Origin: Candidatus Azobacteroides sp.
GTDB lineage: Bacteria > Bacteroidota > Bacteroidia > Bacteroidales > WRGA01
Reading direction: 5' to 3'
Length of the DNA: 40,186 nucleotides
Assembly (NCBI GenBank): GCA_021201815.1
Contig: JAJQEC010000085.1
Location: 1-40,186 of the forward strand
The notes under the pieces were generated by a model. The model ran no database searches. It worked only from the letters and a program-made list of their open reading frames with translations, and had not been told where the DNA came from. This document shows, piece by piece, positions 678 through 7,385 of the stretch. The position numbers and the translations under genes are program-made. Numbering within the stretch: the first letter of the stretch is position 1; each line of letters begins with the position of its first letter.

Positions 678-783
678 GAACTACGTACTTTGGTACCGTT
701 GAACTACGTAGTTCTATAGTGTCGAACTACGTAGTTCGATACTATAGAACTACGTAGTTCTCCACCCTCGAAGTACGTAGTTC
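678..783. repeat. Array of five 14-bp palindromes at exact 23-bp spacing
   Basis: Five units begin at 678, 701, 724, 747 and 770, each exactly 23 bp from the last. The three central units are the perfect palindrome GAACTACGTAGTTC. The outer two are GAACTACGTACTTT (678-691) and GAAGTACGTAGTTC (770-783), which are reverse complements of each other at 13 of 14 positions. The spacers at 715-723 and 738-746 are also reverse complements at 8 of 9 positions, so most of the block is one large palindrome centred near 730.5. Function unknown: operator array for a dimeric protein, recombination site, or extruded hairpins are all possible. Confidence 0.9.
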
Positions 784-1301: not shown

Positions 1302-1332
1302 CATGTTGAATATTTTTCAACGGCTACTTAAA

Positions 1333-2892
1333 ATGATCAGAGAAATACAATTGAAACTCCTTCCGGAAGAGGCATCCGGGGAACAAAATATAAAACAGGT
1401 TATTGTTCGGGAACATGGAATTCCTTTACAGGATATATGGGGTATCCGCATAATGAAACGTTCTATAGATGCGCGTAAGCGAACGGTATATGTCCATCTG
1501 AATGTAAGGGTGTATATAAATGAAATTCCTGAAGAAGGGGATTTTATCCGGATTGATTACCCACCTGTTCATGAAGCAGAACAGGTAATTGTAGTAGGTG
1601 CCGGCCCGGGAGGTTTGTTTGCCGCTTTGCGTTTAATAGAATTAGGAATAAAACCGGTGGTGATAGAACGGGGGAAAAATGTTCATGAACGCCGTAAGGA
1701 TATTGCCCGTATCGGAATTGATCAGAAGGTAGACCCGGAAAGTAATTATTGTTTCGGGGAAGGGGGTGCCGGAGCGTATTCCGATGGGAAACTTTATACC
1801 CGGAGTAAAAAAAGAGGTTCGGTTGAAAAGATCCTGCATATATTCTGCCAGCATGGTGCCAGTCCTTCTATTTTAAGTGATGCTCATCCGCATATCGGCA
1901 CAGATAAACTTCCCGGTGTGATTGAAAATATAAGGGAACAGATTATCCGTTGTGGGGGAGAAGTGCATTTTGAAACGAAAATGACAAGGCTGCTTATTGA
2001 AAATCAGGAAGTAAAAGGGATTCAAACAGCAGAAGGGAAAATATTTGAGGGAAAAGTCATTCTTGCCACAGGACATTCCGCAAGGGGCGTATATAAATGG
2101 CTGGATGACAACCATATCCTGCTTCAGCCAAAAGGGATTGCAGTAGGTGTACGTCTTGAACATCCGCAAAAACTAATCGATAGGATTCAATATCATACAA
2201 AAGAAGGGCGTGGGAAATACCTGCCTGCAGCCGAATATAATTTTGTTACCCAATCGGGTGGGAGAGGAGTTTATTCTTTCTGTATGTGCCCGGGGGGATT
2301 CGTTGTGCCTGCAGCCAGTGACGAGAAGCAGGTGGTTGTGAATGGAATGTCCCCTTCTAATCGTGGTTCTAAATGGGCAAATGCCGGTTTGGTTGTGGAA
2401 ATTCACCCGGAAGATTTTCCGGAATATGAACCATACGGGGCACTTGCGTTGATGAAGTTTCAGGAAGATCTCGAGTACCAGAGCTATCTGAACGGTGGAA
2501 CCCGGCAGACTGCTCCGGCTCAACGTATGGAGGATTTTTTAAGGAATAAGGTTTCTTATGATCTGCCGGAAACATCGTATGTTCCGGGTTTGGTTTCTTC
2601 TCCGTTAAATTTCTGGATGCCGGAATTTATTACCAGCCGTTTGAAAGAGGGATTCCGCTATTTTGGGAAGGTGTCGAGGGGTTTTCTTACGAATGATGCG
2701 GTCATGATCGGTGTGGAGAGCCGTACTTCTGCTCCGGTAAGGATTGTCAGGAACAGAGAGAATTGTGAGCATCCGGAAATAAAAGGATTATTTCCCTGTG
2801 GGGAAGGAGCTGGCTATGCCGGTGGAATTGTTTCTGCTGCGATTGACGGAGAGCGTTGTGCAGAGGGGGTTTTTAATACTTGGTTTGGGTAA
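1333..2892 (+). CDS. FAD-dependent dehydrogenase (COG2509-type NAD(P)/FAD oxidoreductase)
   Basis: A predicted cytoplasmic flavoprotein of 519 residues. After an N-terminal region of about 80 residues comes the FAD-binding Rossmann motif GAGPGG (89-94), followed by a glutamate-arginine pair (IERGKNVHERR) that would contact the adenosine ribose. The stretch CFGEGGAGAYSDGKL is typical of this family, and a second dinucleotide-type motif (GEGAGYAGG) lies near the C-terminus. The physiological substrate of the family is not known to me. The frame is open from an ATG at 1303, but that would lie within or before the expected transcript start; the ATG at 1333 starts MIREIQLKLLPEEA, which matches how this family usually begins. 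It stands alone, about 100 bp ahead of the phosphohexomutase gene, with no visible terminator between them. Confidence 0.85.
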   Translation: MIREIQLKLLPEEASGEQNIKQVIVREHGIPLQDIWGIRIMKRSIDARKRTVYVHLNVRVYINEIPEEGDFIRIDYPPVHEAEQVIVVGAGPGGLFAALRLIELGIKPVVIERGKNVHERRKDIARIGIDQKVDPESNYCFGEGGAGAYSDGKLYTRSKKRGSVEKILHIFCQHGASPSILSDAHPHIGTDKLPGVIENIREQIIRCGGEVHFETKMTRLLIENQEVKGIQTAEGKIFEGKVILATGHSARGVYKWLDDNHILLQPKGIAVGVRLEHPQKLIDRIQYHTKEGRGKYLPAAEYNFVTQSGGRGVYSFCMCPGGFVVPAASDEKQVVVNGMSPSNRGSKWANAGLVVEIHPEDFPEYEPYGALALMKFQEDLEYQSYLNGGTRQTAPAQRMEDFLRNKVSYDLPETSYVPGLVSSPLNFWMPEFITSRLKEGFRYFGKVSRGFLTNDAVMIGVESRTSAPVRIVRNRENCEHPEIKGLFPCGEGAGYAGGIVSAAIDGERCAEGVFNTWFG

Positions 2893-4493: not shown

Positions 4494-7385
4494 ATGGAAC
4501 AAAAAAAACACTTTACCGGATTAACGGAAACGCAGGTTTCGGAAAGCCGGGAGAAATATGGCAATAATATATTGACCCCACCGGAAAAGGAGCCGGTATG
4601 GAAACTCTTTCTGGAAAAATTTAAAGATCCGATTGTTCGTATTCTTCTGATTGCTGCCTTTCTTTCGCTTATCATCTCTTTTGTCCATTGGGAATTTACG
4701 GAAACAATAGGGATTTTCTGTGCCATCTTTTTGGCTACCGGTGTTTCATTCTGGTTTGAGCTGGATGCTAATAAGAAATTCGATGTTCTCAATCAGGTAA
4801 ATGACGATACATTGGTTAAAGTCATCCGGGAAGACCATATTCAGGAAGTTCCTAAAAAAGATATTGTTGTCGGAGATGTCGTTATTATAGAAACGGGAGA
4901 TGAAGTTCCTGCAGATGGGGAGTTGCTGGAAGCTGTAGCCCTTCAGATCGATGAATCTACTCTGACGGGAGAATTATCTATTTCAAAAACAACAGATCCG
5001 GAATCTTTCAAGGCAGATGTCACTTACCCGTCCAACTGGGTGATGCGTGGAACGAAAGTGTTGGATGGGCACGGAATTATGGAGGTTGCAAGGGTAGGAG
5101 ATGCTACGGAATATGGAAAAGTGGCCCGGAAAGCAACCGAAACGAGTGGGGAAGAAACACCTCTGAATCAGCAGTTGGATAAACTTGCCCGGTTTATCGG
5201 GGTGGTGGGTTTTGTATTGGCTATCTTAACCTTTTCTACGTTATTTCTGAAAGATATTCTTTTCGGAGGTATGCGTTATACGATGCCTCAATTGCTTACT
5301 ATCGGTATTGTACTTATTTCCCTGGTGGTCGCTCTGGCTAAAATCTGGGTGCCGATTGCATATGATGCCCTGGAATTAATGGGTAAGAAGAAGGAAATAC
5401 CCGGTTATATACAAAAGGGTACCTGGTTACGGTGGATATTATTCGGTCTTCTTACTTTTCTGGTATTGTCCGGGGTATTGTTGTTGTTTAATATTAATTT
5501 ACTGAGTTCGCAATCATGGGTTGACCTGGATGTAGCAGGACAAATCCTTCAGTATTTTATGGTGGCGGTAACATTAATCGTTGTTGCTGTGCCGGAAGGC
5601 CTGCCAATGAGTGTGACTTTAAGTCTGGCATTGAGTATGCGGCGAATGTTGCAGAATAATAATCTGGTCAGGAAAATGCATGCTTGTGAAACGATGGGAG
5701 CAGCTACCGTAATTTGTACGGATAAAACGGGTACGTTGACACAAAACCAGATGCAGGTTTTTGAAATCCGTTTTTTTGCTTTGCCGGAACAACAATTGAA
5801 AGAGAATGAACTCAGCAACATTATCAAAGAAAATATAGCTGTTAATTCTACCGCCTACCTGGATTTTTCCGATCCGGAAAAGATTCATACACTGGGTAAT
5901 CCGACAGAAGCGGCTTTGTTATTATGGTTAAATAAACAGGGGGTTAATTATCTGGATATCCGGGAATCTGCAGAAATAATCGACCAGCTTACTTTTTCCA
6001 CCGAACGAAAGTTTATGGCTACCTTAGCCTTTTCACCGACTTTGAACAAAAAAATACTTTTCATAAAAGGGGCTCCGGAAATTGTATTATCCAAAAGTGA
6101 AAAAGTGCTGAGTTCTTCCGGAGTAGTACCAAAACAGGAGAAAGCGAAAGAAATTGAAGAATTATTGCTTTCTTATCAGAATCAGGCGATGCGTACATTA
6201 GGCTTTGCCTATGAGATCGTGGAAGACAATAAGCCTCGTTTTGAGAACGGAGAAATGACGAATGCAAACCTGACATACATTGGCATTGCCGCTATTTCCG
6301 ACCCCGTAAGAGAGGATGTTCCGGCAGCGGTGGAAAAATGTCTGCAGGCAGGAATTGATGTGAAAATAGTAACCGGAGATACCCCCGGAACAGCCCGGGA
6401 AATTGCCCGGCAAATAGGTATCTGGAAGGAGAATGAAGCGGATGAGCACCTGATTAATGGGGTGGATTTTGAAGCATTGTCCGATGCGGAAGCACTGAGC
6501 CGTGTAAAAGATATGAAAGTTATGTGCCGTGCTCGTCCTACTGACAAACAAAGGCTGGTGCAGTTATTACAGAAAAGAGGAGAGATTGTGGCAGTGACAG
6601 GTGACGGAACGAATGATGCTCCGGCTCTGAATTATGCACATGTCGGTTTATCCATGGGTAGTGGAACATCCGTAGCTAAGGAAGCAAGTGATATTACTTT
6701 ACTGGATGATTCTTTTAATAGTATCGTAACTGCGGTCATGTGGGGACGTTCTTTGTATCAGAATATTCAGCGGTTCCTTCTTTTTCAGTTGACCATCAAT
6801 GTAACGGCCTTGATTCTTGTATTTATCGGTTCTATCTTCGGGGAGGAATTGCCTTTAACAGTTACCCAGATGCTGTGGGTAAACCTTATTATGGACACTT
6901 TTGCTGCCGGGGCGCTTGCTTCTTTACCTCCTAATGAAAAGGTAATGAAAGATAAGCCCCGGAAAAACGATGCATTTATTATCACCCGGGATATGGCAGT
7001 CCGTATTTTTTCCGCCGGCCTGGTTTTTGTTGTTGTTCTGCTGGGGTTGCTATTTATGTTTACGCATGAGGGAATAATCAGTGAATATGATCTTTCCCGC
7101 TTCTTTACGATCTTTGTAATGTTGCAGTTCTGGAATATGTTTAATGCGAAGGCATTCCTTACAGGACGTTCCGCTTTTTCGAATTTAAGAAAAAGCCAGG
7201 GATTTATCCTGGTTGCGTTTATTATTTTAATCGGTCAGATACTGATTGTTGAGTTCGGGGGAGAAGCTTTCCGTACAGTGCCTATTTCTTTTAAAGACTG
7301 GTTTATTATTATTGCTGCTACATCCCCTGTATTATGGACCGGAGAAATAATACGTTTTTTTGCAACCCGTAAACAAAGAGATTAA
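4494..7385 (+). CDS. Calcium-translocating P-type ATPase, PMCA (type IIB) family
   Basis: An inner-membrane ATP-driven cation pump of 963 residues, most likely exporting calcium. From the N-terminus: a cation-ATPase N-terminal domain, M1-M2, an actuator domain with LTGE, M3 (about 234-252), M4 with the PEGLP motif (367-371), the phosphorylation motif DKTGT with Asp410, a nucleotide-binding domain, the hinge TGDGTNDAP (from 702), and C-terminal membrane segments with NLIMDT in M6. Between M3 and M4 are two extra hydrophobic segments (about 267-290 and 312-334) joined by a charged loop; typical members have only a short loop there. I chose ATG 4494 because the longer frame begins inside the promoter box. 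It stands alone between two terminators. Confidence 0.88.
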   Translation: MEQKKHFTGLTETQVSESREKYGNNILTPPEKEPVWKLFLEKFKDPIVRILLIAAFLSLIISFVHWEFTETIGIFCAIFLATGVSFWFELDANKKFDVLNQVNDDTLVKVIREDHIQEVPKKDIVVGDVVIIETGDEVPADGELLEAVALQIDESTLTGELSISKTTDPESFKADVTYPSNWVMRGTKVLDGHGIMEVARVGDATEYGKVARKATETSGEETPLNQQLDKLARFIGVVGFVLAILTFSTLFLKDILFGGMRYTMPQLLTIGIVLISLVVALAKIWVPIAYDALELMGKKKEIPGYIQKGTWLRWILFGLLTFLVLSGVLLLFNINLLSSQSWVDLDVAGQILQYFMVAVTLIVVAVPEGLPMSVTLSLALSMRRMLQNNNLVRKMHACETMGAATVICTDKTGTLTQNQMQVFEIRFFALPEQQLKENELSNIIKENIAVNSTAYLDFSDPEKIHTLGNPTEAALLLWLNKQGVNYLDIRESAEIIDQLTFSTERKFMATLAFSPTLNKKILFIKGAPEIVLSKSEKVLSSSGVVPKQEKAKEIEELLLSYQNQAMRTLGFAYEIVEDNKPRFENGEMTNANLTYIGIAAISDPVREDVPAAVEKCLQAGIDVKIVTGDTPGTAREIARQIGIWKENEADEHLINGVDFEALSDAEALSRVKDMKVMCRARPTDKQRLVQLLQKRGEIVAVTGDGTNDAPALNYAHVGLSMGSGTSVAKEASDITLLDDSFNSIVTAVMWGRSLYQNIQRFLLFQLTINVTALILVFIGSIFGEELPLTVTQMLWVNLIMDTFAAGALASLPPNEKVMKDKPRKNDAFIITRDMAVRIFSAGLVFVVVLLGLLFMFTHEGIISEYDLSRFFTIFVMLQFWNMFNAKAFLTGRSAFSNLRKSQGFILVAFIILIGQILIVEFGGEAFRTVPISFKDWFIIIAATSPVLWTGEIIRFFATRKQRD

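Follow-up and report, generated by a model that had tools for sequence, protein, structure and literature searches.

Palindrome array in the window

Near one end of the window, by which we mean the whole 40,186-nucleotide stretch of DNA analyzed here, lies a strictly periodic row of palindromes, and the question it raises is what kind of element carries such a row and what holds its spacing. Five GAAnTACGTAnTTC palindromes, the first with one mismatch, occupy positions 678–783 and start at 678, 701, 724, 747, and 770, which gives a pitch of exactly 23 bp, i.e., 2.19 turns at 10.5 bp per turn. The three inner units (701–714, 724–737, and 747–760) are perfect GAACTACGTAGTTC palindromes, and the outer ones, GAACTACGTACTTT at 678–691 and GAAGTACGTAGTTC at 770–783, mirror each other at 13 of their 14 positions. 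The second and third spacers (TATAGTGTC and GATACTATA) are complementary at eight of nine positions. The block as a whole is an imperfect 106-bp palindrome with the third unit at its center, an inverted repeat with 53-nt arms that are 83% complementary, and no ORF of at least 80 amino acids overlaps the array. The first-pass annotation of this DNA, which had reported the exact pitch (as close to two and a quarter helical turns), three identical units within a mirrored pair, nesting in a larger palindrome, mutual complementarity of two of the four spacers, and the lack of a coding frame, has proved accurate in these respects.

The order extends beyond the five units. A degenerate sixth unit, AAAGCATGTATTTC at 793–806, follows in the 23-bp register with three mismatches to the two-unit pattern. 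On the left, positions 646–677 are conserved by alignment with three other copies in the genome, C10, C128, and C138 (CTGAAAAATAAG...ACCCTCGTC), and on the right the flank GATGAGGGTAAAG... occupies 807–829. Since positions 669–677 pair with 807–815, each strand of the block folds into a single long hairpin (z = -12.6 for one and -11.5 for the other). The next gene, which encodes a FAD-dependent protein (1303–2892, forward strand; Pfam FAD-depend_C, E 1e-72), begins about 500 bp away and is outside the element. Triples of palindromes at equal pitch were found in none of 100 dinucleotide shuffles of the window against one observed; at the strictest setting none was found in 1.7 Mb of other Bacteroidales DNA, in which equal-pitch arrays are rare.

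Related copies in the source genome

The block in the window belongs to a non-coding repeat family that lies between genes in multiple copies and has a plan like that of the BrickBuilt element, i.e., a leader and a tail around palindromes at fixed pitch. About 15 related intergenic copies are present in the source genome, which belongs to the order Bacteroidales, and they carry one to nine units each, so that copy number does vary, a point that the first-pass annotation had proposed to check. Four contigs of the genome carry GAACTACGTAGTTC, 11 times in all and always inside such arrays. Besides the window, arrays of the GAAC type are on three further contigs, and arrays of the GAAA/GAAG type, with one to nine units and a common leader and tail, are on about ten more. 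With a looser pattern, a second form, GAAATACGTATTTC/GAAGTACGTACTTC, was found as arrays of eight to nine units on seven more contigs and as short or shrunken copies. The long-form copies share a leader and a tail that can be aligned across six to eight copies, and end in imperfect inverted repeats, about 18 bp long and of the AGGGTTGATGYATTAAAAT type. The window copy retains a short left flank only, and this flank and the array together give 80–83% matches to other copies. A third class (L205, L209, L211, L212, and L147) has similar termini, AGGGTTAATGCATTAAAAT, with one AAGTACGTACTTC palindrome and 22-bp TTGATTTACTAATGAAAATCA repeats.

On the basis of simple longest-ORF calls, all copies are intergenic except for two that overlap short, probably spurious ORF calls. 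Their neighbors are unrelated genes, e.g., for enolase, carbamoyl-phosphate synthase, GH97, and a FAD-dependent protein, and the copies have no fixed orientation to them. The possibility that one gene family might constantly lie nearby was not borne out, and a regulator site of a single locus is ruled out by the many copies beside unrelated genes. A SymE-type toxin domain was seen in two of 32 proteins flanking the elements. A second dispersed palindromic family, REP-like in look (CCGTGNGCTGAGG...CACGGCT...ATATGGCG...CTACG.GGCTT), lies beside elements on L009, L206, and L208. Contigs break at still other repeats (TATTTTAGACAAAGAATGATTCTCATGCAAACGTACGAGGGGAGT and GTTTTTGGAATTGGTAACAGGCTTGATAAAGG; positions 1–80 of the window, the ends of L009 and L011, and the starts of L010 and L011), which indicates that the source genome is rich in repeats.

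Pitch within and between genomes

When the distance between cores was left open (4–34 bp), 48 of the 50 TACGTA pairs listed in the source genome were exactly 23 bp apart. The pitch is therefore kept elsewhere in the genome, and scattering of the core at random spacing, which the first-pass annotation had named as evidence against its reading, did not occur. Most of the TACGTA pairs listed in B. neonati are likewise 23 bp apart. A scan of a contig collection gave 113 loci, 89 of them in Bacteroidota, with a pattern in which the pitch was fixed at 23 and which cannot by itself prove the pitch. We therefore rely on a census of 399 Bacteroidaceae genomes in which TACGTA triples were accepted at any pitch from 13 to 37 bp. 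Such triples are present in 37 genomes, and among the 160 gaps listed, which cover the first places in each genome, a value of 22 bp accounts for 80 and one of 23 bp for 49 (129 in total).

Most genomes in the census keep one pitch value. Among the gaps listed, G966, G1041, and G1151 have 22 bp throughout, and B. neonati (G393), G887, G854, and G998 have 23 bp throughout; the pitch is mixed in G402, G816, G866, G842, and G860, partly because TACGTACGTA allows two registers. A search blind to the core, for three palindromes at any equal pitch of 14–60 bp with TACGTA arrays masked, again gave 23 bp, with the core CTCTATAGAG, and on L087 an array of ACGTACGT runs on in register with a TGTACA array. 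The pitch is thus real and no artefact of the search, and its value across Bacteroidaceae, 22 or 23 bp, is lineage-specific; what stays constant is not the sequence of the core. A universal rule of 23 bp is ruled out by the 22-bp genomes of the unbiased census and by the 21-bp palindrome arrays of one other Bacteroidales genome (G031; L252:2081–2270 and L254:14871–15017, e.g., TTTCGCCCCGGGGCGAAA), and in the wider order an exact 23-bp triple is rare (one of 383 genomes). Another Bacteroidales genome, G020, has two CTCACAAGCTTGTCAATTTTTAT arrays at 23 bp (L178:8231–8298 and L178:9647–9736) with partly palindromic units. An identical 72-bp array with 22-bp pitch was observed in two different genomes (G802:C11:33000–33071 and G966:C2:11801–11872), which may reflect either conservation or transfer.

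The sequence of the array is not widely conserved, as arrays with its specific arms were found in the source genome alone among 393 genomes sampled in the order. Exact arrays are absent from two congeners (91% and 65% complete), and in one of these, G001, the FAD-dependent gene of the window has an orthologue with no array upstream. Lack of conservation in close relatives, which the first-pass annotation had also counted as adverse, therefore holds for the exact arrays, whereas related species have 22- or 23-bp arrays of their own. In other species the arms and even the cores differ, sometimes within one array in register.

Variation of units, spacers, and flanks

Within an array the units are 79–94% identical and the spacers mostly 32–46%, and every spacer is 9 bp long despite its free sequence. 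In six aligned copies, 36 of 198 columns vary in the array (18%), against 95 of 150 in the leader (63%) and 66 of 100 in the tail (66%); array columns thus vary about 3.5 times less than the leader and tail of the same element, with the reservation that the copies are related and neither columns nor units count as independent events. Four positions from the dyad, on either side, the bases form complementary pairs in 64 of 80 units, where 34 would be expected, and three pair types occur. The palindrome is the conserved part in other genomes too, with genome-specific arms, and co-variation within those genomes is weak. An apparent deficit of small indels in the array was dropped, as the indels of the flanks were not reproduced by multiple alignment. 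Judged from the fixed length and free sequence of the spacers and from conservation above that of the flanks, the palindromes are most likely under operator-like constraint.

Comparison with known elements

The first-pass annotation had recognized no named element. An element of this kind has already been named in Porphyromonas gingivalis, in which BrickBuilt is a MITE with tandem 23-nt units, a leader, a tail, terminal repeats, and about 19–20 intergenic copies of variable unit number; it has long predicted stem-loops and is restricted to the species (Klein et al., 2015; PMC4596501). The present family shares with it the core of tandem 23-nt units, the leader and tail around that core in the six to eight long-form copies, the intergenic location in multiple copies, the variable unit number, the long predicted stem-loops, and the restriction to one species. 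The terminal repeats differ: the IS5-type terminal inverted repeat of BrickBuilt, GAGACCTTTGCA, is absent from all 15 copies tested with up to two mismatches, and its matches in the window are at chance level and far from the array. The text of the BrickBuilt paper does not describe each unit as a palindrome and reports no pitch common to several species (PMC4596501). Accordingly, we regard the element as built like BrickBuilt, on a comparison of architecture and terminal repeats, and do not file it as BrickBuilt. P. gingivalis also has repeats of 22 and 41 nt (PMC4596501), and the 22-nt repeat is suggestive beside the 22-bp Bacteroidaceae genomes. No report of a pitch shared across species was found in a literature search that mostly covered papers available without subscription.

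Other classes fit less well. REP, BIME, and REPIN elements are likewise numerous intergenic palindromic repeats; they go with Y1 (RAYT) transposases, of which subclass 2.6 is rich in Bacteroidetes (PMC6006769). A motif search of 3.1 Mb of DNA found one Y1-like ORF, which is not near any array, and association with a RAYT has no support in these sequences. A strict 22- or 23-bp pitch of fully palindromic units is not known from REP clusters. PINSR of Prevotella intermedia, a 188-bp repeat, is also a lineage-specific, non-coding, intergenic repeat in Bacteroidales, but no regular palindrome array is described for it (PMC4755523). A CRISPR array was rejected, as the spacers are 9 bp and come in the same order in different arrays, and the published LexA motifs of Bacteroidetes, CTAA-N5-TTAG and GGA-N5-TCC (PMC8565304), do not match. 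An origin of the window array from a phage or plasmid was also rejected, with no plasmid match and no match of a viral contig to the arm-specific pattern.

Possible function and origin

Among the three possibilities of the first-pass annotation, protein binding, recombination, or structured RNA, which were reasonable and took no account of the multi-copy interspersed nature or of the lineage-specific pitch, protein binding appears to fit best. We give about an even chance to the reading that the core of this interspersed, BrickBuilt-like element consists of helically phased sites, in a row, for a putative dimeric DNA-binding protein. These would be operator-like, with each 14-bp palindrome bound by a dimer of the candidate protein. 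With roughly two turns of the helix from one site to the next (23 bp here and 22 bp in other lineages), neighboring dimers would touch, and this contact would set the pitch. The effect downstream might be local regulation, insulation, or organization of the nucleoid. The elements would probably spread as non-autonomous mobile DNA, with unit number changing in whole 23-bp steps. The binding, its cooperativity, and the downstream effect are inferred.

Some observations count against such a protein-site core, among them the confinement of the arm-specific arrays to a single genome of the order sample and their absence from the two congeners. A lone conserved protein would not tolerate the differing arms and cores without co-evolution, and the 21-bp arrays of G031 are also adverse. 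Within palindromes, template switching or gene conversion might also produce the co-variation. No binding protein for the arrays was found. On a phage contig, L161, eight palindromes of the TTTACGTACGTAAA type, spaced at exactly 23 bp (5760–5935) and found with a pattern fixing the pitch at 23, directly precede a gene for an Arc-like repressor (5936–6232; PHROG 582, E 1e-4; no Pfam match), which is followed by terminase and portal genes. Such arrays can therefore adjoin a gene for a DNA-binding protein, and we take this as a lead, not as proof.

The main rival, to which we give a tentative place, is a selfish MITE-like minisatellite with no host role, in which unequal recombination alters the array number and gene conversion and template switching could keep the palindromes and lower their divergence. 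The leader, tail, and imperfect terminal inverted repeats of the long form, the restriction to one species, and the range of one to nine units are all as expected, and BrickBuilt has been interpreted in the same way (PMC4596501). On the other hand, the most conserved part is the array and not the flanks that bear the terminal repeats, recent duplication would leave similar spacers, which the low spacer identities contradict, and a pitch of 22 or 23 bp is common to different sequence families. No parent transposase was seen, and no target-site duplication is evident by eye at the ends of the long form.

A structured transcript seems improbable. Read-through RNA with long hairpins might stabilize mRNA or bring about its termination, a role proposed for REP/BIME elements, or might serve as small RNA, and very stable folds are indeed predicted for both strands. 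The G-U and A-C mismatches are, however, balanced (18 and 17 in the six aligned copies; 17 and 20 in B. neonati), and this equality does not point to selection on a single RNA strand; moreover, the dyad centers are conserved though they would be hairpin loops. The Rfam search of the window matched a tRNA only, which excludes a known structured RNA, and an intrinsic terminator is excluded by the lack of a terminator-like site near the array; the variable orientation to genes also speaks against a transcript. Recombinase or centromere sites have palindromic cores at fixed spacing, and a recombination, invertible-switch, partition, or replication site is nevertheless very unlikely given the many copies scattered through chromosomes beside unrelated genes and the absence of a recombinase family from the neighbor families listed.

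Significance

Such elements were previously known in detail only as BrickBuilt, which was seen as a species-specific oddity. Counting this single core only, as many as one in eleven sampled Bacteroidaceae genomes have evenly pitched palindrome arrays, and palindromes at equal pitch offer annotators a simple signature by which to recognize a class that goes unannotated in current pipelines. Rather speculatively, the arrays might reflect a DNA-reading system throughout Bacteroidales, in which a putative dimeric protein co-evolves with its sites, assembles on arrays of lineage-fixed 22- or 23-bp pitch, and in this way, at dozens of loci between genes, organizes the chromosome or governs gene activity. 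Since the pitch is mostly constant within a genome, it can be tested which protein may read the arrays and whether it shapes chromosomes or expression in these abundant gut bacteria.
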